27,985 nt of DNA. Source: a virus. The notes under the pieces were generated by a model, which saw only the letters and a list, made by a program, of their open reading frames with translations, was not told where the DNA came from and did no database searches. The stretch's first letter is position 1. Each line of letters starts with the position of its first letter. The stretch lies in the IMG/VR virus record IMGVR_UViG_3300023174_003957, positions 1 to 27,985 of that record. One strand, written 5' to 3'. The position numbers and the translations under genes are program-made. Of this stretch, positions 6,079 through 18,550 are shown one piece after another.

Positions 6079-7429
6079 TGAGGACTATTTACGAAAAGTA
6101 TTACCATTTCTAAAAACTGAATATTTTACCGGTAATGTAGAAAAAACTTTATTCAATGAAATTACATCATTCACAAGCACTTACAATACTACGCCAACGA
6201 TTGAAGCACTTAGTATTGCCGTCAAAGAAAGGCGTAATCTTACAGATGATGAAGTTCAGAGAACCCAAGATTATCTTACAGAGATTGAAAAGAATAAATC
6301 AGAAGAAACCGAGGTTCAATGGCTTGTTGACAAAACAGAAAAATTCTGCCAAGAGAAAGCAATCTACAACGCAGTATTGGGGTCTATTTCGATTCTCGAT
6401 GGCAAGGACAAAGTTCACGACAAAGGTTCGATTCCCAAGATATTATCGGACGCTTTGGCCGTTTCTTTCGACAACTCGGTAGGCCACGATTACTTACAGG
6501 ACTCAGATGCTCGATATGAATTCTATCATAGAAAAGAGGAAAGAATACCTTTCGACCTCGACTACTTTAACAAAATCACAAAAGGTGGTTTACCTAATAA
6601 AACACTCAACATCGCTCTTGCTGGTACTGGCGTTGGCAAATCTCTTTTTATGTGTCATGTGGCTGCTTCGTGTATGGTTCAAGGCAAGAATGTATTATAC
6701 CTCACTATGGAAATGAGTGAAGAAAAGATTGCAGAACGAATTGACGCCAATCTATTAAATGTTACAATTGATGATTTGATGGAGTTACCAAAAGATATAT
6801 ACGATAAGAAAGTTACTCGTGTTCGTGAGAAAACGACCGGTAAACTTATTATCAAAGAATATCCGACAGCTTCAGCATCAACTATTCATTTCAGGACACT
6901 ACTAAATGAACTTAATCTCAAGAGGTCTTTTGTACCTGACATTATATTTGTTGACTATCTCAATATTTGTTGTAGTGCTCGTATTAAAGCTGGTAGCAAT
7001 ATTAATTCATACACCTACGTTAAAGCGATTGCAGAAGAATTACGTGGCCTTGCTGTTGAGTTTAATGTTCCTATTGTATCTGCTACACAAACTACCCGTT
7101 CAGGATTTACTTCCAGTGATCCGGGACTTGAGGATACGAGTGAGTCGTTCGGACTTCCCGCCACCGCAGATTTGATGTTTGCTTTGATTTCTTCTGAAGA
7201 ACTAGAAGAACTTGGCCAAATCATGGTTAAACAATTGAAGAATCGATATAATGATCCAACATTCCACAAACGATTTACTCTTGGTGTCGATAGAGCCAAA
7301 ATGAAACTATATGATGTTGAACAAGCTGCACAGATGGGTATCGCTGATGCTGGCCACGATAAACCTTTAAACACATTTGGTACGAGAGAAGAAAAACAAA
7401 AGAAATCATTTAGTGGATTTAAAGTATGA
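6038..7429 (+). CDS. 41: DnaB-family replicative helicase, T4 gp41-like
   Basis: A hexameric 5'-3' helicase that drives the phage fork, 463 residues (T4 gp41 is 475). I chose ATG 6038 because AGGA at 6026-6029 is well placed; a TTG one codon earlier is the only nearby alternative. An N-terminal helical domain (1-150) is followed by the RecA-like core: Walker A AGTGVGKS at 195-202, TMEMSE at 223-228 with the likely catalytic Glu225, Walker B IIFVDYLNI with D306, SATQTTR at 348-354, and a KNR arginine-finger candidate at 401-403. The first 41 bp lie inside the previous gene in another frame. No primase (gp61) gene is in this window. Confidence 0.95.
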   Translation: MKLEQAILKNLVYNEDYLRKVLPFLKTEYFTGNVEKTLFNEITSFTSTYNTTPTIEALSIAVKERRNLTDDEVQRTQDYLTEIEKNKSEETEVQWLVDKTEKFCQEKAIYNAVLGSISILDGKDKVHDKGSIPKILSDALAVSFDNSVGHDYLQDSDARYEFYHRKEERIPFDLDYFNKITKGGLPNKTLNIALAGTGVGKSLFMCHVAASCMVQGKNVLYLTMEMSEEKIAERIDANLLNVTIDDLMELPKDIYDKKVTRVREKTTGKLIIKEYPTASASTIHFRTLLNELNLKRSFVPDIIFVDYLNICCSARIKAGSNINSYTYVKAIAEELRGLAVEFNVPIVSATQTTRSGFTSSDPGLEDTSESFGLPATADLMFALISSEELEELGQIMVKQLKNRYNDPTFHKRFTLGVDRAKMKLYDVEQAAQMGIADAGHDKPLNTFGTREEKQKKSFSGFKV

Positions 7430-8535
7430 TTATCTCCAAAGACGATGGTTTGTATTGTGCCAAGGCCTTTCATGATTATTTTAATAATTATGGCGACATA
7501 GAACAATACATGCGAGAGGAAAAAATAAAATCTCTCGATCAAATACCAACATCAATATTTCCACCAGAAGATGACCTATTCTCAGATTTCACTATGCATC
7601 CAAAAGATATGGATATTGAAGTGGTAGAAATACCAGGTCAAACATGGGAAACATTACTTTCGATTACCTCATCACACATCAATAAAGCACCAGTTGGTAG
7701 AAATGTACAATTGGCAGTCAAGGAAAAGAACACAGGAAAGATTCTAGGTTTTATTCGATTAGGTTCACCAGTAATCTATATGCGGCCTCGTAATGAAATG
7801 CTTGGACAAGTGTTCTCGCAAACCTCAGAAACATCCAAACGATTTAATGCTTCTGCTATGATGGGATTCGTAATTGTACCATCTCAGCCATTTGGTTTTA
7901 ATTATTTGGGTGGTAAATTGATGGCTGCCATTTGTACCAGCCACACAGTAAGAGAAATCTGTAATAAAAAATATGGCATGAATCTTTGTTTATTTGAAAC
8001 TACCAGTTTATATGGTTCAACAAAACAAGTATCACAATACGATGGTATGAAACCTTATATTCGATATAAAGGTCTCACAGAATCGGATATTGTGCCGATG
8101 ATGCACGGCAAAGCATACAATGATTTAAAAGAATATGTTGAGAGTAAAGTTGGAGATATTTTGGGCGGTGATGAAAGTACCACCAGTAGAAAATTGAGAA
8201 CATTTACCAAGATTATTGCTCTCACCAAAGCTGCTTTAAAAGGATCAACTGAAGCAGAGGCATTCTCTTTAACGATTGAAAAGGCTAAATCGTTGACAGA
8301 AAGAAAAAGATATTATGTTGGTGATTATGGATTTAAAAATATGGTTGATTATGTTAATTTAAAAACCGATAAACTTTTACCTGGTGAAAATTATCATAAA
8401 CACGAATTGAATAATGTCATTGAATGGTGGCGGAGTAAAGCTATAAATAGATACGAAACCCTTAAATCTGAGGGTAGATTACGAACAGAACTTGAAGTAT
8501 GGACTTCAGGAAAAGACATTCAAATTATTAGGTAA
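7426..8535 (+). CDS. DUF4338 (DruA-like) protein
   Basis: A 369-residue protein overlapping the helicase stop by 4 bp (ATGA). The central part (about 145-215) matches the pattern of DUF4338, the family of DruA from the Druantia anti-phage system: SAMMGFVIVPSQPFGFNY, LGGKLMAAICTS, then YGMNLCLFETTSLYGSTKQ and a Y-x-G motif (the ET...YGS...Y arrangement is typical). The N-terminal 140 residues and the C-terminal Lys/Arg-rich tail have no motif I know. The family's biochemical role is not established. Tight coupling to the helicase in this and, as I recall, other T4-like phages points to a DNA-transaction role rather than defence. Family assignment is fairly secure; function is inferred. Confidence 0.75.
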   Translation: MIISKDDGLYCAKAFHDYFNNYGDIEQYMREEKIKSLDQIPTSIFPPEDDLFSDFTMHPKDMDIEVVEIPGQTWETLLSITSSHINKAPVGRNVQLAVKEKNTGKILGFIRLGSPVIYMRPRNEMLGQVFSQTSETSKRFNASAMMGFVIVPSQPFGFNYLGGKLMAAICTSHTVREICNKKYGMNLCLFETTSLYGSTKQVSQYDGMKPYIRYKGLTESDIVPMMHGKAYNDLKEYVESKVGDILGGDESTTSRKLRTFTKIIALTKAALKGSTEAEAFSLTIEKAKSLTERKRYYVGDYGFKNMVDYVNLKTDKLLPGENYHKHELNNVIEWWRSKAINRYETLKSEGRLRTELEVWTSGKDIQIIR

Positions 8536-8537
8536 AA

Positions 8538-9797
8538 ATGGCAGACGATACCTCAAAAGCAGAATCCGCACAAGCATTATTTTGTGCTATGGCCGATTTC
8601 ATAGGAGCATCAAAGGTTGAAAAGGTATTTGATGAAAAACTTTATCCAACATATAAAATATTTAAAAGATTTTGGGATGAAAATTATCCAACAGCAAAAA
8701 TTGGTGTTGCATTTAGAACACACGTTGATTCTGGAACAACCAATTTAAAAGAAATTGAAGATTTTTTAATGAAAGATGATAGTTGGTATATTTCTTCTTT
8801 AAAAATTGCAAAAAAACTTATCAAAGATTTAGATGATATATCAAACAAATTTACTGCAATAAAAAGACCATCATGGTCATCCGTTTTTTATGTGCGAGGC
8901 GATAAAGAAGTTATGGACAATATTCAAGTATTATTTAAAGAAGCCAATGATGATCAAAAGAAAATTAATCAAATGTTAGTTGAAAGTGGTCAGGCTAGAA
9001 AATTATTATTTGGTGACATCAATAAATGGTCTCCCGCCGACATATATTTTGCTTCACCCAAAGCAAAAAAAGATATACAAAAAATGGTAACAAAAAAACA
9101 AGGTTTAACATTCACAACATTGAATAGTTTTATAGCTTCATTAATTTCGTCCGGAAATTTACTACCATTATCATTAAAAAAACAAACTCAAGAAGTAAAA
9201 ATCTATAAAATTAATTTCAGTCGACCAAACGAATTAAGAGAAATAGAAAAAGTAAAGTCATACGGATTAAGTGATTGGCAACCAAGAAAACCTGGTGGAA
9301 AAAACGCCAGAGATTTAAAACTTTATATGTCACAGGATAAAACAAAATATATTCAAATGTTACATGTTACTGATGAGAGTGGTGGATGGAAAGCAAACAA
9401 TATGGATAAAAATTCTGAAGCTAGACATGGTTCTTTAGCATCACAATATGTTTTTTCTGATGCACTTTCTCTTGTTGATAATAGTTTTTCTTCTAAGTGG
9501 TTATCACAGTTTAAAATATCAAATGATAAATTTAAAAAAGAATTAAAAGATTTTACTAAAAAATATTCTGGTGGAAAAAAACCAAAACAGCCTGCGGGCC
9601 AAAAAGAAAAAGATCCAATAAGATTGATGTACGAAGAAACAAGAACAGAACTAAGTGCTGAGGTAACAAATAAATTAATTCCTATGTTGATTTCTTGGTT
9701 CAATAAAGGTGATAATGCCGACAAATTTGTTCGTGTCGTATATCAATATACATCATCTCGATCTGAAGATTCTGGTCCTTTTGTGATTGCAAAATAA
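8538..9797 (+). CDS. Hypothetical protein, 419 residues
   Basis: It starts at ATG 8538, two bases after the DUF4338 stop. The protein is Lys-rich and soluble, without signal peptide or membrane helix. Recognisable blocks are an acidic-helical N-terminus, KWSPADIYF near 155-165, LTFTTLNSFIASLISSGNLLPLSLKKQ (about 186-212), KNARDLKLY near 255 and a C-terminal all-alpha part with a Lys/Gly/Pro linker (YSGGKKPKQPAGQKEKD). The pattern W-x-P-A-D-I plus LLPLSLKK recurs in phage proteins I have seen, but no function is known to me. A perfect late-promoter octamer lies 88 bp before its start, inside the previous gene, so it may also be made late. It could be a structural or DNA-associated protein. Confidence 0.8.
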   Translation: MADDTSKAESAQALFCAMADFIGASKVEKVFDEKLYPTYKIFKRFWDENYPTAKIGVAFRTHVDSGTTNLKEIEDFLMKDDSWYISSLKIAKKLIKDLDDISNKFTAIKRPSWSSVFYVRGDKEVMDNIQVLFKEANDDQKKINQMLVESGQARKLLFGDINKWSPADIYFASPKAKKDIQKMVTKKQGLTFTTLNSFIASLISSGNLLPLSLKKQTQEVKIYKINFSRPNELREIEKVKSYGLSDWQPRKPGGKNARDLKLYMSQDKTKYIQMLHVTDESGGWKANNMDKNSEARHGSLASQYVFSDALSLVDNSFSSKWLSQFKISNDKFKKELKDFTKKYSGGKKPKQPAGQKEKDPIRLMYEETRTELSAEVTNKLIPMLISWFNKGDNADKFVRVVYQYTSSRSEDSGPFVIAK

Positions 9798-9799
9798 CT

Positions 9800-10078
9800 A
9801 TGGCACTAATTGATTTCGATAAACTTACCCAAGAATTTGACCAAGAAGATGACTTTGGTTTTTCTGCCGTTTCAGAAGAAGAATATAATTCTGTTATTAA
9901 TAAAACGGCCGAGACCGCAGAAGATTATAAAGTTCGATTAAAAGAAGTAGAGAAAATGATTGTTCCTTTTCTTACTAAATTACATTCGACTGGAGATAAA
10001 GAATATATATATTGGCCAAATCGTAAACCTATTATAGAAAAACAAATAGAAAAAATACTTAAACTGACGAGAGATTAA
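9800..10078 (+). CDS. Small acidic protein conserved in T4-like phages
   Basis: A 92-residue protein, two bases after the previous stop. The N-terminus is very acidic with an FGFSAVSEEEY block, followed by a helix (DYKVRLKEVEKMIVPFLTKL) and the motif DKEYIYWPNRKPIIEKQIEKIL. I recall the KEYIYWPNR-type block from marine T4-like phages, where the gene is common but uncharacterised. No membrane segment or cysteine is present. It closes the replication-side operon; glycan genes start three bases later. Confidence 0.8.
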   Translation: MALIDFDKLTQEFDQEDDFGFSAVSEEEYNSVINKTAETAEDYKVRLKEVEKMIVPFLTKLHSTGDKEYIYWPNRKPIIEKQIEKILKLTRD

Positions 10079-10081
10079 ATT

Positions 10082-10795
10082 ATGTCCGCTACCGTGATTA
10101 TACCAACCACTGGATCACCAGAAGTTAAAAATGCTGTTGAATCCGTTTTGAATCAAAGCCACCATACAGAATGTTATGTTGTAATAGATGGTGACGAACA
10201 TCTAGATAAAACATTAGAAATATTAGGCTCAGCTGTTGATGATATACGAGTTCATGTTTGTTCTCTACCAATCAATGTCGGTGCCAAAGGGTTTTATGGA
10301 CACCGTGTCTATGCAGCTTTCACACATCTAGTTAATACAGAATATGTCGCCTATCTTGACCAAGACAATTGGTTATATCGCTCTCATGTTGAACAATGTA
10401 TTAAAACAATTAACACAAGAAGTTTAGACTGGTGTTATTCTTTACGCCAAATATATAATAAAGAAGGCAAGTTTGTTTGTTTTGATGATTGTGAATCATT
10501 AGGTAAGTGGCCAACTTATCATGGAGTACATCATATAGATACGAATTGTTATTTCATTAAAACAGAAATAGCAAATAAAATTGCAAGTGCTTGGCACGGT
10601 GGTTGGGGACAAGATAGAGTATTTCTTCAAGCAATCACACATCACTTTCCTAAATTTGATTGCACAACTTCATATACAACGTGCTATAGAGTAGATGGTG
10701 GTAAAGGCTCTGTTAATGCAGAATTTTTTGAACATGGCAATAGAGTAATGAATGAAAAATATAATGGAGAATACCCGTGGCGAAAAAGCATTTAA
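10082..10795 (+). CDS. GT2-type (GT-A fold) glycosyltransferase
   Basis: A 237-residue enzyme with the layout of a short family-2 glycosyltransferase. It opens with a nucleotide-binding strand (ATVIIPTTGSPEVKNAVESVL), then VVIDGDEH, then the metal-binding motif YLDQDN (D93-Q-D95, the DXD-like site), and late in the chain WGQDRVFL (Q176-D177) in the place of the catalytic ED motif. It would transfer a sugar from a nucleotide donor in the cytoplasm; the donor and acceptor cannot be read from sequence. It is the first gene of the ten-gene glycan cassette and overlaps the next by 19 bp. No membrane anchor is seen. Confidence 0.85.
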   Translation: MSATVIIPTTGSPEVKNAVESVLNQSHHTECYVVIDGDEHLDKTLEILGSAVDDIRVHVCSLPINVGAKGFYGHRVYAAFTHLVNTEYVAYLDQDNWLYRSHVEQCIKTINTRSLDWCYSLRQIYNKEGKFVCFDDCESLGKWPTYHGVHHIDTNCYFIKTEIANKIASAWHGGWGQDRVFLQAITHHFPKFDCTTSYTTCYRVDGGKGSVNAEFFEHGNRVMNEKYNGEYPWRKSI

Positions 10796-11613
10796 TTATT
10801 GGCGGTTTTACAAATTACGGAATCAATCAACTTAAACCTTGGGTTATTTCAGCAAAAGAAGTTGCTGGTAATAATGATGTTGTTTTAGTTTATGGTAATG
10901 CAACAGACGAGACCTTAGATTGGTTGGTTGAACAAAATGTTGTTATCGTTCCTATGTTACAAGTTCAAGACGTGCCAATTCATGTGTTACGTTTTTTATC
11001 AATTTATGAATACTTGGATAAACATTGGCAACATTATGAGTACGTTGTTACCACAGATGTTAAAGATGTTTATTTTCAAGCAGATCCATTTAAATTCCTT
11101 GTTGACCGTAAACTTGTTATTGCTTCAGAAGGTTTAAAATACAAAAATGAACCTTGGGGCAATGAGAATCTATTTCAAGCTTATGGTCCTTATGTTTATG
11201 AAAAATTTAAAGATAATGAAATCTTTAACGTTGGAACATTCGGTGGCAAATCAGAGTATGTAAAAGATATGGTGTTTCATATCTTCACCAACGGCATCAA
11301 CCGACCAATTCCTATTTGTGACCAAGCCGTATTCAATGTATTAATCAATACACAACCATTCAAAGATATTGTAACTGAAACGGATGCATGGGCTGCTGAG
11401 TTGGGTACTATCATGGATCCATCAAAGATTGATGCGTTTAGGCCAAATTTACTTTTTGATGAGCCAGTATTTGAAGATGGTTTATTAAAAAATTGTACTG
11501 GTTTTACTTACCCAATTGTACATCAATACGACCGAGTACCAGAAATTAAAAAATTTGTCCAAGAAAAATATGGACAAGAAGATGAATCACAATACTTTAC
11601 TTATAGGGTGTAA
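10777..11613 (+). CDS. Putative GT-A-like glycosyltransferase (GTG start)
   Basis: It starts with GTG at 10777: GGAG at 10766-10769 is correctly spaced and the reading frame opens AKKHLIIGGFTNYG, a typical first strand. The 278-residue protein has the GT-A feature VVTTDVKDVYFQADPF (D94 and D97), which corresponds to the donor- and metal-binding loop of enzymes that carry T-D-x-x-D-V-x-F-Q-x-D-P-F. It also has CDQAVFN and PIVHQYDR near the C-terminus. Such proteins resemble predicted glycosyltransferases of bacterial surface polysaccharide loci. The 19-bp overlap with the preceding enzyme suggests coordinated synthesis. Substrates are unknown. Confidence 0.75.
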   Translation: MAKKHLIIGGFTNYGINQLKPWVISAKEVAGNNDVVLVYGNATDETLDWLVEQNVVIVPMLQVQDVPIHVLRFLSIYEYLDKHWQHYEYVVTTDVKDVYFQADPFKFLVDRKLVIASEGLKYKNEPWGNENLFQAYGPYVYEKFKDNEIFNVGTFGGKSEYVKDMVFHIFTNGINRPIPICDQAVFNVLINTQPFKDIVTETDAWAAELGTIMDPSKIDAFRPNLLFDEPVFEDGLLKNCTGFTYPIVHQYDRVPEIKKFVQEKYGQEDESQYFTYRV

Positions 11614-11615
11614 AA

Positions 11616-12257
11616 ATGGATTTTGAAAAAATATATAAAGAAGCTGTAGCAGATAAGACCGGTGATATGTATGTACATTTACCAATAATTTCAAAACTTG
11701 TTGAAGATTGCAAGCATGTTACCGAATTCGGTTTAGGTAAAGCGGAAAGCACTAAAGTTTTTTTACGACACGATGTTGAAATTCATACTTATGAAATTGA
11801 TCCGTTACCTGAATCCGTTAAATTTATTGAACAAGCCAAAAGTGCTGGAAAAAATATTACTTTGCATATAAATGATACTAGAGCAGTTGAAATTGAAGAA
11901 ACCGATCTTTTATTCATCGATTCTTATCATTCATATGGTCAGGTAAAAAAAGAATTAGAATTACATGCAGAAAAAGTTAGAAAATATATTATGTTTCATG
12001 ATACAACATTGTATGGATTTGTTGGTCAAGGCTATAAACCTGAATCCGATTATTATGAAATTGGTATTTGGCCGGCTATTCAAGAATTTTTAGATACAAG
12101 TATACAATGGCAAATCATACATCATGTTGAAGAAAATAATGGTTTTACTATACTACAAAAAAAACCAGAATTTAATGTAAAAATTGTGGCACACAATTTA
12201 GACGCTTCTAAAAAAGTTATGAACCCAATGACAGGTGAATATAAAGATGAATATTAA
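11616..12257 (+). CDS. Class I SAM-dependent methyltransferase
   Basis: A 213-residue protein. Motif I appears as EFGLGKAES (37-45), the acidic residue after strand 2 as E60-I-D62, and LLFIDSYHSYGQV (98-110) followed by YIMFHDTT gives the arrangement of Methyltransf_24/cephalosporin-hydroxylase-like enzymes: an ID..H.Y block, then a strand ending HD. In sugar pathways such enzymes O-methylate hydroxyl groups, often metal-dependently through the D...HD residues. It lies two bases after the second glycosyltransferase, so a sugar or glycan substrate is a reasonable inference. The last 20 residues are extra and overlap the next gene. Confidence 0.8.
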   Translation: MDFEKIYKEAVADKTGDMYVHLPIISKLVEDCKHVTEFGLGKAESTKVFLRHDVEIHTYEIDPLPESVKFIEQAKSAGKNITLHINDTRAVEIEETDLLFIDSYHSYGQVKKELELHAEKVRKYIMFHDTTLYGFVGQGYKPESDYYEIGIWPAIQEFLDTSIQWQIIHHVEENNGFTILQKKPEFNVKIVAHNLDASKKVMNPMTGEYKDEY

Positions 12258-12819
12258 ACTAATTGACATTATACACCAGTACAATCTTCGAAATGATACA
12301 AATTATGATTTTGGTACTGATAAAGAATATGGCCACAAATACATAAGCAATTTTTATGAAAAAGAATTTGAAAAATATCAAGATAAACCAATTTCTTTAT
12401 TGGAAATAGGAACACACAAAGGTGGAAGTTTAGCTCTTTGGCATTACTATTTCAAAAATGCTCAAACTATTGTTGGTATGGATGTTGCTGAATTTGGTGC
12501 ACAAATGAATTGTTTGAGATTTAATAATGTTAAAATTATTTATCAAGATGCGTATCTTGAACCTGTTGCCAGTTTTTTACCCAATTACGACATTATTATT
12601 GATGATGGTCCACACACCAAGGAAAGCCACCTACAATCACTAAAACTTTATTTACCTAAACTCAACAAAGGCGGAGTTTTTATTGTTGAAGATATTGCTC
12701 AAATGGAATGGACGGAAGAATATAAATCACTTGTTCCTCCATGGATGACATATGAAATATTTGATATTAGAGAACCTTCTGGTATTTCTGACAGTATTAT
12801 TTTCTGTGTGAGGCATTAA
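12247..12819 (+). CDS. Class I SAM methyltransferase, macrocin/MycE-like
   Basis: I chose ATG 12247 with AGGTG at 12233-12237; a GTG at 12235 is a weaker alternative. The 190-residue protein carries FGTDKEYGHKYISNFYEKEF, then motif I LLEIGTHKGGSLALW (E53, G55), VGMDV (D79), IIIDDGPHTKESH (D119, D120, H123) and GGVFIVEDI. This series matches the sugar O-methyltransferases of the MycE/macrocin group, which use a metal bound by the D-D-x-x-H residues. It overlaps the previous methyltransferase by 11 bp and the next gene by 1 bp. It probably methylates a deoxysugar or hexose in the glycan built by this cassette. Confidence 0.82.
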   Translation: MNIKLIDIIHQYNLRNDTNYDFGTDKEYGHKYISNFYEKEFEKYQDKPISLLEIGTHKGGSLALWHYYFKNAQTIVGMDVAEFGAQMNCLRFNNVKIIYQDAYLEPVASFLPNYDIIIDDGPHTKESHLQSLKLYLPKLNKGGVFIVEDIAQMEWTEEYKSLVPPWMTYEIFDIREPSGISDSIIFCVRH

Positions 12820-13547
12820 TGTCCAGTATTTCTTTTATTCATCTCGCCAGCGCAGGCAAAAAAGTATCTTCTTCTCATATTGTTAAACAAATAAGAAGTT
12901 TGTATCCTGATGCTTATTACCTTTTGGCTTCTGATGGTGCCGATGATTTGGAATCAATTGCCAAAGGTAACAATACCGATTACAAATACTATACAGAAAA
13001 GTTAGGATATCCAGGTTACGATGGCCAAAAGTTGGTTACTTGGTTACAAAGATTTAGAGAGGCTTGCCTTCAAGCTAATACCTCACATATAATGATGGTT
13101 GAAGATGATGTATGGGTAAAGAAACAACTTACAGTACATGATGATTGGGAAATGGCTTGTCATTATCAAGGACATGGTAATATCATGCATAATGGTTTGA
13201 TGGACATGGTGGAACGATTCTCTGGTAAAAGGTCAAACACCAATCAATACGGCGGTGGAGGTGGTTCAATATATAAAGTATCCACATTCTTAGACAATTT
13301 TGAAACAGTATCAAATTGGTTTCTTAATAATACTGATTATGTTAGAAGTTTTTATCCTGAATTAGGTTTTATGGATTGTTATATGCCAATCTACTATATG
13401 TTATGTGGAAAAGATTATACGATTAATCCATATATGGTAGATACGCACAATCATAAAGACAATGGATTTGATTGGGATGGTTTTGTTGAATCAACATCAA
13501 AAGAAATTGAAATTGTAAATAATTATAAAAAATATTATTGGGTATAA
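12819..13547 (+). CDS. GT-A-like glycosyltransferase, hypothetical
   Basis: A 242-residue protein starting in a TAATG overlap with the methyltransferase gene. An N-terminal Rossmann-type strand (ISFIHLASAGKK) is followed by YYLLASDG and the motif IMMVEDDVWV with E95-D96-D97, the usual place of the donor- and metal-binding acidic cluster of GT-A enzymes. Further on are QYGGGGGSIYK (144-153) and GFMDCYMPIYYML. The general design fits capsular or LPS-type glycosyltransferases, but I cannot place it in a named family. Cytoplasmic, with no membrane helix. Confidence 0.68.
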   Translation: MSSISFIHLASAGKKVSSSHIVKQIRSLYPDAYYLLASDGADDLESIAKGNNTDYKYYTEKLGYPGYDGQKLVTWLQRFREACLQANTSHIMMVEDDVWVKKQLTVHDDWEMACHYQGHGNIMHNGLMDMVERFSGKRSNTNQYGGGGGSIYKVSTFLDNFETVSNWFLNNTDYVRSFYPELGFMDCYMPIYYMLCGKDYTINPYMVDTHNHKDNGFDWDGFVESTSKEIEIVNNYKKYYWV

Positions 13548-13548
13548 T

Positions 13549-14346
13549 ATGAATGACATTACTATTGTAACGGCCTTTTTTGACATTGGTCGTGGTGATT
13601 GGACTCCAGATAAAGGACTTCCACATTACCTACACAGAACAACTGATACATATATGGAAAGATTTGGCCATATGGCTAAATTAGAAAATGATATAATTGT
13701 CTATACTTCTCCAGAATTTGTTGATAGAATCAAAGAACTCAGAGGTGGCCGTCCAACCAGCATTTTAACTGTAGATTTTAAAAATAATTTTAAAGTGCTT
13801 CGTGATAAAATTACAAAAATACAAAAAGATCCAGTATATCAATCAAAAATAAATCCCATGCAAGCACGCAATCCAGAATACTGGTCTGCGGATTATGTCG
13901 TAGTAAATTCTTTAAAATCTTCATTTGTAAATCGTGCTAGAGAAACAATAACAACCGATTTGGTTGCTTGGATGGACTTTGGTTATTGCAGAGAAGAATC
14001 TACAAGAAATAATGTAACTCATTGGAAATATCCTTTCAATAAAGATAAAATTCATTTATTCAATATTAAAGATTGGAAAGAAGGAACCTTTATTGAAAAT
14101 GTTATTTTTAATAATGATGTTTATATGACGGGTCCTTGCATCGTTGCTGGTAAAGATATGTGGTTACAATTAGAACAATTAGTCCACCACAGTTTAAATG
14201 AATTGTTTAATGCAAATTTGGTTGATGACGACCAAACATTATTGTTGATGTCTTATCTTTTAAAACCTGAATTGTTTGAGTTACATTCAGTTTCAAAAGA
14301 GGACTGGTTTATTATTTTTAAGGATTATAATGCAAATATTCTTTAG
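13549..14346 (+). CDS. HtrL/YibB-family glycosyltransferase-like protein
   Basis: A 265-residue protein with the signature of the HtrL/YibB (WlaTC) family: TIVTAFFDIGRGDW at 5-18, YLHRTTDTYMERFGHMAKLEN, VVYTSPE-like VYTSPE, then EYWSADYVVVNSLKSSFVNRA (110-130) and LVAWMDFGYCREE. Members occur in enterobacterial LPS-core loci and Campylobacter LOS loci, where they are thought to transfer sugars. It follows the previous gene by one base and overlaps the next by 17 bp. The presence of an LPS-core-type enzyme in a phage supports a host-envelope or LPS-like glycan as the target. Family assignment is strong; the transferred sugar is unknown. Confidence 0.85.
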   Translation: MNDITIVTAFFDIGRGDWTPDKGLPHYLHRTTDTYMERFGHMAKLENDIIVYTSPEFVDRIKELRGGRPTSILTVDFKNNFKVLRDKITKIQKDPVYQSKINPMQARNPEYWSADYVVVNSLKSSFVNRARETITTDLVAWMDFGYCREESTRNNVTHWKYPFNKDKIHLFNIKDWKEGTFIENVIFNNDVYMTGPCIVAGKDMWLQLEQLVHHSLNELFNANLVDDDQTLLLMSYLLKPELFELHSVSKEDWFIIFKDYNANIL

Positions 14347-15067
14347 GGATCCCCCAAATCTAGGTGATTTTTTAAATGTAATACCAGTACTATCGGGCAT
14401 TTATAAATCAACTGGTGAGCAAATTGAATTTGTTCTTCGTCAAGATATGAAAAAATTTAATGGTATCAGAGAATTTTTAAAGTACCAAGATATGTTTAGT
14501 GATGTTCTTTTTGATGATGAAATATTTTCTTTTGGTGATCCTCCTGTTATGATGAGCTCATGGACTAGAGAAGATAAAAAGAATCCATTGAGACCAATTG
14601 AAACTTGTCGCTATGAAAATAACACCAATGATTATTATCCACATCTAAAATTTGAAGTGGATGATTCGTTCATATTAAAAGTTCCTGAATTAAATTTACC
14701 AGTTGCCGATACATTCTATATTGGAGATAGATGGTTCCGTGACGATATGGATATGAGAAGAAAAAGTGGCATCTTATCACATCTTGACAAAGGGGTGTTT
14801 TTAGATTATAATAGACCAATAATGGAAAATGCCTATCTAATTAAGAACAGTAAATTTCCATTTGTTTCCACTTTTACTGGAGTTTCTAATATTGCTGATT
14901 TATTGAATGTAAAACATTTAGTAATTTATGATGATGAAATTAAAATTTGGAATGATAAACCAATTCAATATTCATTTGAAAAACATTATTATGGCGACCG
15001 TAATGGTAAACTCTTATATTTGAATGACCTTAATACAGACAATCTTGATGAACATTTTAAACTATAA
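14330..15067 (+). CDS. GT9/heptosyltransferase-like protein
   Basis: I chose ATG 14330, with AAGGA at 14320-14324; an upstream in-frame start at 14276 lies deep in the htrL-like gene. The 245-residue product begins MQIFFRDPPNLGDFLNVIPVLSGI, the first strand and glycine loop of ADP-heptose:LPS heptosyltransferase-like (GT-B) proteins (compare the L-G-D-x-L-x-x-x-P pattern). The C-terminal part carries FPFVSTFTGVSNIADLLNVKHLVIYDD, comparable with the donor-site region, though the usual D-[ST]-G-x-x-H box is replaced by TGVSNIADLL. It is shorter than cellular GT9 enzymes (about 320-350). It could be a degenerate or non-catalytic relative of the second GT9-like gene at 15536. Confidence 0.65.
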   Translation: MQIFFRDPPNLGDFLNVIPVLSGIYKSTGEQIEFVLRQDMKKFNGIREFLKYQDMFSDVLFDDEIFSFGDPPVMMSSWTREDKKNPLRPIETCRYENNTNDYYPHLKFEVDDSFILKVPELNLPVADTFYIGDRWFRDDMDMRRKSGILSHLDKGVFLDYNRPIMENAYLIKNSKFPFVSTFTGVSNIADLLNVKHLVIYDDEIKIWNDKPIQYSFEKHYYGDRNGKLLYLNDLNTDNLDEHFKL

Positions 15068-15539
15068 AAATAAAACTTATCCACAATTTCAATCTGAAGG
15101 TAACGCATCACAATTTGCTATTCCATTTGCAAAACATTTTTGTAAAGGATACGGAATAGATGTTGGATGTAATCGCCAAGACTGGTGTTTTCCTGGTGCA
15201 ATTGGAGTTGATTTAAATTTCAATGACGGAAACACAGCATACAATTTTGAATATAAAGATTTGGATTATGTTTACTCCAGTCATTGTTTAGAGCATCTTA
15301 CTGATTGGGTTACAGCTCTTGATTATTGGACAGCAAATCTAAAACCAGGTGGAGTATTATTCTTATATCTTCCACATTACAATCAAGAATACTGGCGTCC
15401 ATGGAACAACCGTAAACATAATCACATTTTCACTCCTGAAATTATTAAAGATTACATGATAGACCGTGGTTACATAAATATTTTTCATTCGGAACGTGAT
15501 TTAAACGATTCATTTATAATTGTAGGTGAAAAAATATGA
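15048..15539 (+). CDS. Class I SAM methyltransferase (Methyltransf_11-like)
   Basis: A 163-residue enzyme. The start is uncertain: ATG 15048 gives a natural N-terminus (MNILNYKNKTYPQ) and overlaps the previous gene by 20 bp; an in-frame ATG at 15024 adds eight residues, and neither has a clear Shine-Dalgarno. Motif I is GYGIDVGCNR (34-43), then GVDLNF, then YSSHCLEHLTDW (76-87), which is the motif III position of Methyltransf_11 proteins. It continues with LKPGGVLFLYLPH. Typical substrates in such cassettes are sugars or glycolipids; no direct evidence of substrate. It is the third methyltransferase of the cassette. Confidence 0.8.
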   Translation: MNILNYKNKTYPQFQSEGNASQFAIPFAKHFCKGYGIDVGCNRQDWCFPGAIGVDLNFNDGNTAYNFEYKDLDYVYSSHCLEHLTDWVTALDYWTANLKPGGVLFLYLPHYNQEYWRPWNNRKHNHIFTPEIIKDYMIDRGYINIFHSERDLNDSFIIVGEKI

Positions 15540-16231
15540 TTGTAAATGTTTCTCGTGAAACTTTTGGTGGTGCTATTCGTAACGGCGATTTAATTGCTGT
15601 TGCTAATATTGTTGAACATTTAAGAAAGAATATTCCTGGTTTAAAATTCTATTTTACACCAGGAACTTTATTTGAAGCTGACTATGTGCATAAGATGCAT
15701 CAGTTTTTTTTAGATCATACAGATTATTTTTCATTAGGTACCGGCACGGCTGATTTGCCATGGAAAAGAGTTAATATTTGGGACTTCCGTGATGTTGCCG
15801 GTGATGTTGTAAAGATTCCAAATAATCAACAAAAACAAAAAAAGATTGTTGTGTGTCCTGTATTTGATGCTAAGTATAATACTTATCGTAATTGGCCAAT
15901 GGATGTTTTTGAAAAAATTCTAAATGAATGTGATCAAGCTCAAGGTTATGAAAAGGTAATATTACAATCCGATAATACTCGTTACAGAGATGGTTGGATT
16001 CATAGCTCAGATTTTAATGATAACCTAATACACATTATGCAAGCAGAAATTTATGTTGGTGGTGATACGGGTCTTTCTCATTTTGCTGGTGCATTAGAAC
16101 ATGGTCCTCAACCGGTTTATTATACCTCTAGCCGAGGATTACTACACACCACTCCATTTTATTGGTATACACACAAAAAAGGTACGATGAAAACCTATTG
16201 GTTGGATTTTGAAAGGACAGAATGGCAATGA
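15536..16231 (+). CDS. GT9/heptosyltransferase-like glycosyltransferase
   Basis: A 231-residue protein overlapping the methyltransferase gene by 4 bp. The C-terminal half contains IYVGGDTGLSHFAGAL, with D177-T-G-L-S-H182, which matches the donor-binding D-[ST]-G-x-x-H-x-A box of GT9 heptosyltransferases, preceded by KIVVCPVFDAKYNTYRNWPMD and VILQSDN strands. The N-terminal GT-B domain is short. Members of GT9 add heptose or similar sugars to LPS. Together with the GT9-like gene at 14330 this could form a split or paired system, but each may act alone. Cytoplasmic. Confidence 0.75.
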   Translation: MIVNVSRETFGGAIRNGDLIAVANIVEHLRKNIPGLKFYFTPGTLFEADYVHKMHQFFLDHTDYFSLGTGTADLPWKRVNIWDFRDVAGDVVKIPNNQQKQKKIVVCPVFDAKYNTYRNWPMDVFEKILNECDQAQGYEKVILQSDNTRYRDGWIHSSDFNDNLIHIMQAEIYVGGDTGLSHFAGALEHGPQPVYYTSSRGLLHTTPFYWYTHKKGTMKTYWLDFERTEWQ

Positions 16232-17235
16232 AAAAGATTTTTATAACTGGCGTAGCAGGTTTTTTAGGTAGTCATTTAGCAGATGCATTTCTAGCCAAAG
16301 GATATCAAGTTGCAGGAATTGATAATCTTTTAGGTGGATATCGTGATAATGTACCTGAGGGCGTTGAGTTTCATAATTTCGATTTGCTTGAATTCGATAA
16401 ACTTAAAAGTATAATGACCGGATGTGATGTTGTTTACCACACTGCGTGTACCGCATATGAAGGACTTTCTGTGTTCTCTCCTTCTCTAGTTGTTCAAAAT
16501 ACTACACAAATTGCTGTTAATGCAATGACTGCTGCTATTCAAGCCGGTGTTCCTAAGTTTGTACATTGTTCATCTATGGCCAGATATGGTACTCAAGATA
16601 GAGTTCCTTTTACCGAAGATATGACTTGTAAACCTCAAGACCCATACGGTATTGCCAAGTATGGTACAGAATTATTATTACAAAATCTTGCCGAGATTCA
16701 TGGTATCGAATTGGTAATTGCCATTCCACATAACATCATTGGTCCTAGACAGAAATATGATGACCCATTTAGAAATGTGGCAAGTATTATGATTAACTTA
16801 ATGTTACAAGGTCGTCAGCCAATCATTTACGCAGACGGATCGCAAACCAGGTGTTTCTCGGATATCTCGGATGATGTCGGTTGTCTTGTTGAATTTGCAG
16901 AGAATCCTAAGGCGGTTGGAGAAATATTTAACATTGGTCCAGATGAAAATCCGGTAACTATTTTAGAGTTGGCTCAAATTACCGCAAAATTATTGAATTT
17001 TAACTTGGATCCCGTTTTCATGCCAGGTCGACCACAGGAAGTAAAACATGCAAATTGTTCAGCCGATAAAATTCGTTATTTCTTTGGTTATCAAACTAAA
17101 ACCACTCTAGAACAATCATTACAAAAACAAATAGATTATATTAATTTACGTGGACCGAAACCATTTGAATACCATCTTCCTTTGGAAATAATTTCAGATA
17201 AAACTCCAAAAACTTGGACACAAAAATTATTTTAA
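16222..17235 (+). CDS. NAD-dependent epimerase/dehydratase (extended SDR)
   Basis: A 337-residue nucleotide-sugar epimerase or dehydratase. The start ATG 16222 has AAAGGA at 16212-16217; a second ATG at 16228 is possible. The dinucleotide-binding motif is ITGVAGFLGSH (G10, G13, G16), followed by GIDNLLGGYRDNV (D34 suits NAD). Catalytic residues are HCSSMARYG (S117/S118) and Y142-x-x-x-K146 in PYGIAK. Further blocks are PHNIIGPRQKYDD and FSDISDDV, typical of UDP-glucose 4-epimerase and related enzymes. It could make a donor sugar for the transferases upstream. It is the last gene of the glycan cassette and is followed by a 124-bp spacer. Confidence 0.9.
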   Translation: MAMKKIFITGVAGFLGSHLADAFLAKGYQVAGIDNLLGGYRDNVPEGVEFHNFDLLEFDKLKSIMTGCDVVYHTACTAYEGLSVFSPSLVVQNTTQIAVNAMTAAIQAGVPKFVHCSSMARYGTQDRVPFTEDMTCKPQDPYGIAKYGTELLLQNLAEIHGIELVIAIPHNIIGPRQKYDDPFRNVASIMINLMLQGRQPIIYADGSQTRCFSDISDDVGCLVEFAENPKAVGEIFNIGPDENPVTILELAQITAKLLNFNLDPVFMPGRPQEVKHANCSADKIRYFFGYQTKTTLEQSLQKQIDYINLRGPKPFEYHLPLEIISDKTPKTWTQKLF

Positions 17236-17306: not shown

Positions 17307-17314
17307 TATAAATA
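17307..17314 (+). promoter_or_regulatory. T4-type late promoter TATAAATA
   Basis: The perfect octamer TATAAATA lies in the spacer between the epimerase gene and the gene at 17360. The expected transcript start is about 10-15 bp further on, leaving a leader of about 35-40 nt before the ATG. In T4 this octamer is the only element needed for late transcription by gp55-bound RNA polymerase. The remainder of the spacer (17236-17306) shows nothing else I can support. It fits a switch from the glycan cassette to late genes. Confidence 0.7.
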
Positions 17315-17359: not shown

Positions 17360-18550
17360 ATGTTATCATTTAAGTCATTCTTAACTGAAGAATCTGAACA
17401 AGGTTCTGAACTCAAACATATACATCATGCAGAAGATAGACCACTAATGCACGGTCATTCTGGTTTTGAACATGCACACGCCGCTTTAATGCAAGCTCAT
17501 GCTCATATGAAAGCTGGCCACAAAAATACCAATTTGACAATGAAATATGATGGTTCTCCATCAATTGTTTTCGGCCATCATCCTAAGAATGGTAAATTCT
17601 TTGTTGCAACCAAATCTGCGTTCAATAAAACTCCAAAGATTAACCATACAGAAAAAGATATTGATAAAAACCATGGCCACGCTCCTGGTTTAGCAAAAAC
17701 ACTCAAGCACGCTTTGAAACATTTACCAAAGGTAACACCTAAACATGGTGTATACCAAGGCGATTTGATGCACCACGCCGATACAAAAACTTTACACGAA
17801 AGTTATATCATAGAAGCGAAAGGTGATGTTTCATTTACTCCTAACACAATCACTTACACCGCAAAAGGTAAAGAAGCGGCTAAGATTAAAAAATCTAAAG
17901 TTGGTGTGGTAGTTCACCACCAATATAGTGATGACATGAAACACGCTTCGCCTCATGTAGATACATCAAAGTTTAAAGAACATCCAGATGTACACATTCA
18001 TGGCGCTGAACACGACACAAGTAAAGTTAAACATTCCGATGAGAATGAGAAACACTTTCAAAAACACATGGCTGCAGCAAAAGAGATACATGATACGCAT
18101 GGCCACAAGATGTATGATTCTATACACAAAAAGCATAGCGGAGAAGCTGGCCACCTATCGACATACATAAACAAGACAGTACGACACGATGAAGTACCAA
18201 GTGTTAAAGGATTCAAAGAACATCTACATGATATTCACGCAAAACAAGCTGCCAAAGTTACTACTGAAAAGTCTAAATCTGAAAAAACAAAAGAAGGTGC
18301 TTCACAAATTTCTCATGTAGAAAAACATAAAGCACATTATGGAAATTTATTATCGATGCATCATCATCTACATCAAGCCAAAAATGCTTTGGTAAAATCA
18401 TTAGAAACACATGAAGGACATTACCAACATCACATCGCTGGTAAAAAATCAAAACCCGAAGGATTTGTGGTACACCATGATAGTCAACCAACCAAGTTGG
18501 TTAATCGTGCAGAATTTGCTAAACAAAATTTGTTAAAAGTTCGTAAATGA
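17360..18550 (+). CDS. His-rich KxDG ligase-like protein with capsid-targeting-type N-terminus
   Basis: I chose ATG 17360 (AAAGGA at 17348-17353) over a GTG at 17333. The 396-residue protein begins MLSFKSFLTE, which matches the T4 capsid-targeting pattern with E10. It then shows LTMKYDGSPSIVFG, in which K62-x-D64-G65 looks like motif I (the adenylated lysine) of the DNA/RNA ligase and nucleotidyltransferase superfamily. GVYQGDLM (130-137) and KVGVVVHHQY (180-189) fall where motifs III and IIIa would lie, KPEGFVV (E367-G368) resembles motif IV and TKLVNRAEF (378-386) resembles motif V. A long charged, helical insertion fills 200-360. By my count about 55 of 396 residues are His (about 14%). 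I think this is the DUF6267-type family of T4-like phages. Ligase chemistry is inferred from motifs only. Confidence 0.75.
   Translation: MLSFKSFLTEESEQGSELKHIHHAEDRPLMHGHSGFEHAHAALMQAHAHMKAGHKNTNLTMKYDGSPSIVFGHHPKNGKFFVATKSAFNKTPKINHTEKDIDKNHGHAPGLAKTLKHALKHLPKVTPKHGVYQGDLMHHADTKTLHESYIIEAKGDVSFTPNTITYTAKGKEAAKIKKSKVGVVVHHQYSDDMKHASPHVDTSKFKEHPDVHIHGAEHDTSKVKHSDENEKHFQKHMAAAKEIHDTHGHKMYDSIHKKHSGEAGHLSTYINKTVRHDEVPSVKGFKEHLHDIHAKQAAKVTTEKSKSEKTKEGASQISHVEKHKAHYGNLLSMHHHLHQAKNALVKSLETHEGHYQHHIAGKKSKPEGFVVHHDSQPTKLVNRAEFAKQNLLKVRK

Follow-up and report, generated by a model that had tools for sequence, protein, structure and literature searches.

We analyzed a 27,985-base virus record from a T4-superfamily phage (IMG/VR record IMGVR_UViG_3300023174_003957; this whole stretch is called the window below), in which positions 10082-17235 are filled by ten plus-strand open reading frames (ORFs), g1 to g10, separated by gaps of no more than 3 bases or overlapping by up to 44 bases. 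This cassette is a hypervariable island, fixed in its site beside the DNA-helicase gene and anchored by g2, in a large uncultured clade of the T4 superfamily, and its probable role is to repaint either the infected cell's surface or that of the virion. The features of the locus are listed below; TATAAATA is the word of the T4-type late promoter.

8442..8449, + strand: TATAAATA, T4-late-promoter-like motif, which lies within the last part of u369 and precedes u419, u92 and the island
8538..9797, + strand: u419 (phrog_1462), probably the first gene of the transcription unit
9800..10078, + strand: u92, conserved small protein at the island's left edge; 73 of 80 divergent loci have it upstream of g2
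10082..10795, + strand: g1, predicted GT2-family GT-A glycosyltransferase (PF00535, 2e-10), in 49 of 53 islands
10777..11613, + strand: g2, predicted GT-A-fold glycosyltransferase and anchor gene (phrog_1579, 2.5e-6; fold model), in 52 of 53 islands
11616..12257, + strand: g3, RMNT_CmcI-type methyltransferase, probably a sugar O-methyltransferase (Pfam, 4.9e-6)
12235..12819, + strand: g4, Methyltransf_24-type methyltransferase (Pfam, 1.9e-9; phrog_21658, 5e-20)
12819..13547, + strand: g5, EDD-motif protein (EDD invariant)
13549..14346, + strand: g6, HtrL/YibB family protein (PF09612, 1.4e-59, 202.4 bits)
14330..15067, + strand: g7, predicted transferase of GT9/WaaC fold (GT-B; AlphaFold model, WaaC Z 14.2)
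15024..15539, + strand: g8, Methyltransf_23/11-type methyltransferase (Methyltransf_23, 1.6e-9), rare, in 3 of 53 islands
15536..16231, + strand: g9, candidate GT9-like transferase, weak by sequence (PF01075, 20.3 bits)
16222..17235, + strand: g10, nucleoside-diphosphate-sugar epimerase/dehydratase of the extended short-chain dehydrogenase/reductase type (PF01370, 4.7e-46)
17307..17314, + strand: TATAAATA, late-promoter-like motif before u405 at the right edge of the island, found in 30 of 37 relatives
17360..18550, + strand: u405 (DUF6267), right flank, found without the island in phage Melnitz
18547..20304, + strand: cyt585, cytidylyltransferase-like plus P-loop domain, right flank

The cassette is not a chance run of ORFs, because dozens of other viral contigs carry homologues with the gene order preserved and the genes are under purifying selection (dN/dS of 0.03-0.24 for the window versus relative L002). 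The listed starts of g2 and g4 are GTG; the listed TTG start of g7 at 14276 falls within g6, and the start is probably the ATG at 14330. Hydropathy analysis of all cassette proteins revealed no transmembrane segment. The original prediction had described ten genes spaced or overlapped by a few bases and encoding GT-A enzymes, three methyltransferases, an HtrL/YibB-type protein, a sugar epimerase and two GT9-like proteins. The spacing agrees with this description, and Pfam matches support the methyltransferases (g3, g4 and g8), g6, g10 and the GT-A assignment of g1, with the fold model supplying that of g2; for the GT9-like pair, g7 is borne out by its fold, whereas g9 is plausible only, its PF01075 score lying under the cut-off of 22 bits.

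Several of these assignments come from structural models or conserved motifs. The AlphaFold model of g2, built with 36 relatives, has a pLDDT of 94.9; its top Foldseek matches were GT6 enzymes (1.5e-10), and VIA gave Z scores of 17.7 for the collagen glucosyltransferase domain of LH3, 17.3 for GT6 and 16.4 for Mimivirus R699. By this model g2 is a GT-A-fold transferase, with GT6 and LH3 about level by fold, and the protein keeps an invariant T-D-x-x-D (T93, D94, D97), an acidic motif of metal-binding type; searches of g2 against Pfam and the sequences in PDB gave no match. For g5, which was without a Pfam match, the one clue is the invariant EDD motif, which hints at a GT-A enzyme. The g7 model (pLDDT 91.9, 15 relatives) matched WaaC with Z 14.2 over 217 aligned residues at 3.5 Å, well above unrelated rows, and WaaF and TibC matched as well, indicating a GT9 heptosyltransferase fold closest to WaaC/WaaF. 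No meaningful Pfam match to g7 was found, PF01075 included, and profile comparisons of g7 with g9, as of g2 with g5 and of g2 with g6, detected no similarity; the GT9 link of g7 thus rests on its fold. Weak PF01075 matches recurred in 11 of 16 members of the g9 family, and g9 matched a heptosyltransferase I model at 4.8e-5. PDB sequence searches with g5, g6, g7 and g9, like that with g2, returned nothing useful.

By sequence, g6 belongs to the HtrL_YibB family: it matches PF09612 over model positions 2-265 of 267, far above the gathering cut-off of 24.1 bits, and scores below the cut-offs of the YibB equivalogs (TIGR02192, 214.5 versus 264.9 bits; NF008462, 265.7 versus 342 bits). In phage isolates, relatives of g6 were found only in Campylobacter phages A11a and A18a (41% identical), plus a weak marine match. 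The g10 protein is LegB/GalE-like, but falls under every equivalog cut-off shown.

So that the cassette would not bias its own sample, we picked relatives by their helicase, which yielded 80 loci, 30 of them with at least 5 kb downstream. Among these 30, g2 was present in all, g1 in 24 and g6 in 17. Relatives of g6 were found in 54 viral loci with a common gene order, and a divergent g2 query showed that at least 591 viral loci or contigs encode g2; in the best 80 of these, g2 lies among the flank genes of this site wherever the contig extends that far, with u405 preceding u92 in the divergent group rather than following the island. The isolate phage collection contained one distant g2 match, and isolates Melnitz and P-SSM4 keep the flanks and lack the island. 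The content of the island varies widely: 53 islands, some cut by contig ends, displayed 36 gene orders. The constant left anchor is g2 (52 islands), usually plus g1 (49), and the middle is variable; g6 was found in 49 islands, a count inflated because many loci were retrieved by g6, followed by g7 (36), g5 (35), g9 (34), g10 (29), g3 (24), g4 (17) and g8 (3). Judged from their sequences, the replacement genes resemble other methyltransferases and transferases, a nucleotidyltransferase, a kinase and an aminotransferase.

Comparisons between close relatives show that the middle of the island is swapped en bloc between phages, as in bacterial O-antigen and lipooligosaccharide (LOS) loci. Between the window and three relatives (L012, L016 and L028), the UvsX, DnaB, u369, g1, g10 and u405 proteins are 91-98% identical, whereas identity drops to 60-62% for g2, 52-54% for g3, 56-57% for g5, 72-73% for g6, 52-53% for g7 and 51-52% for g9. 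Synonymous divergence (dS) rises correspondingly from ~0.3-0.6 in most left-flank genes to 0.9-2.4 in g2-g9; g10 and u405 have dS of 0.5-1.7 and few protein changes, and u419 varies as well in two of the three. The pattern is reversed between the window and L002, for which g7 and g9 are 98-99% identical (dS 0.22) and u92 and u405 are 80% identical (dS ~1). In total, 11 pairs combine helicase or u369 identities of at least 93% with island genes at no more than 70%, and 9 pairs show the reverse; most of these pairs share one member (the window or L062), and independent events are therefore fewer.

The phage that carries this island belongs to the pelagimyophage/cyanomyophage-like T4 superfamily by gp43, UvsX, gp41 and, from a relative, gp23. 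Its gp43 is ~50% identical to cyanophage polymerases, the gp23 of relative G001 is 65% identical to those of Melnitz and Mosig, and the window also encodes UvsX, a DnaB-type helicase, a cytidylyltransferase-like protein, a possible head protein, a spanin-like protein and an endolysin. A near-identity search of the cassette against phage isolates matched nothing. A cyanobacterial host was rejected: psbA and psbD were not found in 14 relatives, and the P-SSM4 control matched.

The transcription unit probably begins upstream of the island, at u419/u92. Upstream of u419, TATAAATA was present in 17 of 22 relatives and NATAAATA in all 22, with a location that varies with respect to the helicase; NATAAATA also precedes head240 in 7 of 7 cases. 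At the right edge, TATAAATA stands 26 bases before the listed u405 start in the window. No late-type motif preceded g1 (0 of 66) or g2 (0 of 63). The relatives in these counts are not independent, and in the G001 genome the word occurred 11 times versus ~17 expected; given this lack of enrichment, the evidence from the late motif is one of position. The motif upstream of u419 weakens the idea that the cassette is part of an early replication unit, and we infer late or mixed expression. Some loci (L003-L008 and L037) also carry perfect sigma70-type sites near the u419-upstream junction, which leave room for an early timing. Separately, the interior of g7 (window 14784-14812) contains a perfect sigma70-type match, TTGACA-17-TATAAT, which is common to close relative L002.

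As to function, our leading reading, which we hold tentatively and at a little less than even confidence, is that the enzymes of this surface-glycan island act on the lipid A-core or lipopolysaccharide (LPS) of an infected Gram-negative host and hide the receptor. The soluble phage enzymes would act one after another on the cytoplasmic side of the inner membrane, where g1, g2 and the GT9-fold g7 and g9 would lengthen a pre-existing acceptor, most likely lipid A-core, g10 would provide a modified sugar nucleotide, and g3, g4 and g8 would O-methylate the added sugars. Display of the new sugars would use the host's own LPS transport. The altered LPS would hide the receptor, which would shut out competing phages and prevent progeny from adhering to the infected cell or its debris. 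Selection favoring uncommon glycan types would account for why the middle block is swapped.

Some of the evidence for LPS comes from the families themselves, which had been called LPS-type at the outset, a view upheld by the GT9 fold and matches and by the surroundings of HtrL. Bacterial HtrL genes were found in 3 of 398 genomes sampled, two of them in LPS-core-type surroundings, beside GT4/GT8 or beside GT25/capsule-type genes; HtrL has also been reported from an outer-core LOS locus of Acinetobacter (PMC4172580) and from LOS loci (PMC10327509). These neighbors and occurrences favor LPS, and glycosyltransferases of related phages have been interpreted as O-chain modification by the authors who described pelagimyophages (PMC7029224). 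The initiating phosphotransferase PF02397 and the flippase PF01943 were each found in 0 of 13 records (the window and 12 relatives) with positive controls, and the natural reading is therefore that the cassette extends an existing acceptor, as originally proposed. That proposal had listed a polymerase among the missing components too; the absence of a flippase and an initiating transferase held in these records, which speaks against a Wzx/Wzy locus. No membrane protein lies in the cassette, with Wzy not searched as a family.

Other observations weigh against LPS as the target. The g2 gene is constant over a wide clade whose hosts probably differ, a pattern at least as consistent with a phage-encoded acceptor as with a variable host LPS; the late-type motifs are compatible with virion modification as well; GT9-fold enzymes can glycosylate proteins too (TibC); and G001 and G002 have further sugar genes next to tail-region genes.

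These points favor virion glycosylation, which we regard as less likely than not, and in which a methylated oligosaccharide would be attached to a structural protein (a capsid decoration, an Ig-like head protein or a tail fiber). Here g2 and g1 would lay a constant base and the variable genes would build a strain-specific outer part, comparable to chloroviruses, which are known to encode their own capsid-glycosylating enzymes and to build a conserved core (PMC11571054). Consistent with this idea, the anchor is constant and the outer genes variable, every cassette enzyme is soluble, the late-type motifs flank the unit and are nearly absent within it, and the fold neighbors of g2 include the LH3 domain and R699 at a level close to GT6; TibC and the tail-region sugar genes also count in its favor. 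Two relatives encode collagen-like proteins that might be acceptors. In G002 (L157-L158, 31175-40461), collagen-like repeats occur in three ORFs (the longest of 1352 amino acids), which lie among baseplate-type genes and adjoin a GT4 glycosyltransferase, and in G001 (L141, 93910-96286) a collagen-like ORF adjoins a 2OG-Fe(II) oxygenase, raising the possibility of a hydroxylated fiber. However, in bacteria the GT9 and HtrL families point to LPS, and the sigma70-type sites near the u419-upstream junction in some loci make a late timing less certain. Moreover, a search of 20 records, many of which are fragments, detected collagen-like genes in only 2, and the 133-kb relative G411, which has g2, was not one of these; a collagen-like acceptor as a general rule is thereby rejected. 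We think it unlikely, in a more specific form, that the virion bears a glycan coat with serotype-like variation, in which g2 would begin a constant base on a fiber or capsid protein and the swappable genes would add methylated outer sugars. The fiber might be collagen-like and hydroxylated in some relatives, and such a coat would possibly be a bacteriophage counterpart of chlorovirus capsid glycosylation.

We consider it improbable that the island supplies a different host structure (capsule, pilus, flagellin or a small glycolipid) with sugar nucleotides or glycans and plays no part in receptor masking; the variable sets do include nucleotidyltransferase-like, aminotransferase-like and kinase-like genes, but the swapping pattern suggests something recognized from outside, and no pathway for another acceptor was found. 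Least credible, indeed very unlikely, is hypermodification of phage DNA by glycosylation of modified bases as in T4: the island adjoins replication genes, and the T4 beta-glucosyltransferase gene lies near uvsX and gene 42, but the ThyA/dCMP-hydroxymethylase family was found in 0 of 26 relatives' records (many of them fragments, but including contigs of 214, 136, 133 and 115 kb), no C5-methylase was found in the records of 12 relatives, and ten genes with sugar-type methyltransferases and a heptosyltransferase fold would not be expected. None of the controls matched in a Tet/JBP search.

Clusters of phage glycosyltransferases are already known; what appears to be new here is the fixed site, the anchor and the allele swapping. 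Prophage gtr seroconversion cassettes (P22 and SfII type) provide a precedent for phage-borne changes to host surface sugars that block other phages, acting through the membrane proteins GtrA, GtrB and Gtr and expressed from the prophage. The island, by contrast, comprises ten soluble enzymes beside T4-like replication genes, and the lack of transmembrane segments separates it from the gtr type. Pelagimyophages are related T4-superfamily aquatic phages with several glycosyltransferases interpreted as modifying the LPS O-chain, but their genes mostly lie either in the tail-fiber region or grouped by two or three, whereas islands of the window type occupy 5-8 kb at a single fixed site downstream of dnaB and combine a constant anchor with a swapped middle; a freshwater pelagimyophage group is without LPS genes (PMC7029224). 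Bacterial O-antigen and LOS outer-core loci, such as the Acinetobacter OC locus (PMC4172580), share constant flanks, a variable center, glycosyltransferases with sugar-modifying enzymes and, in one type, HtrL; the island differs in sitting in a phage genome and in that a Wzx-type flippase and an initiating transferase were not found. Chlorovirus PBCV-1 (PMC11571054) resembles it in having virus-encoded glycosyltransferases, a conserved core and variable additions, but is a eukaryotic virus with a known acceptor. The Methylophilales phage Melnitz (MZ577098) and Prochlorococcus phage P-SSM4 have the same flank order from dnaB to the cytidylyltransferase-like gene, minus the island. Glycosyltransferases of aquatic phages have been interpreted in terms of O-chain modification or of DNA or virion glycosylation (PMC7029224, PMC12619734), and we found no published description of a site-fixed, anchored, allele-swapping island in a search whose scope excluded preprints and most subscription papers. 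If our interpretation is correct, a common uncultured phage group alters a surface glycan during infection through a locus whose evolution resembles that of serotype loci in bacteria; phage-phage competition or virion glycan variation would become testable, and the islands would be a source of small, soluble enzymes that transfer or methylate sugars.

Three further observations concern the neighborhood of the island and related sugar genes. Between dnaB and the island, u369 (window 7426-8535) matches Druantia DruA over residues 87-197 (PF14236, 2e-9), and such a DruA-like gene is a regular neighbor of the helicase across much of the clade. The tail-fiber region of G001 (L140, 68946-75054) has a second cluster of sugar genes, which encodes a UDP-galactopyranose mutase, a GT2 enzyme, a methyltransferase-like protein, a GT25 enzyme and a sulfotransferase-domain protein. 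In the same relative, near recombination genes (L139:5321-6109), a cytidylyltransferase-like domain is fused to a cupin of the mannose-6-phosphate isomerase type.

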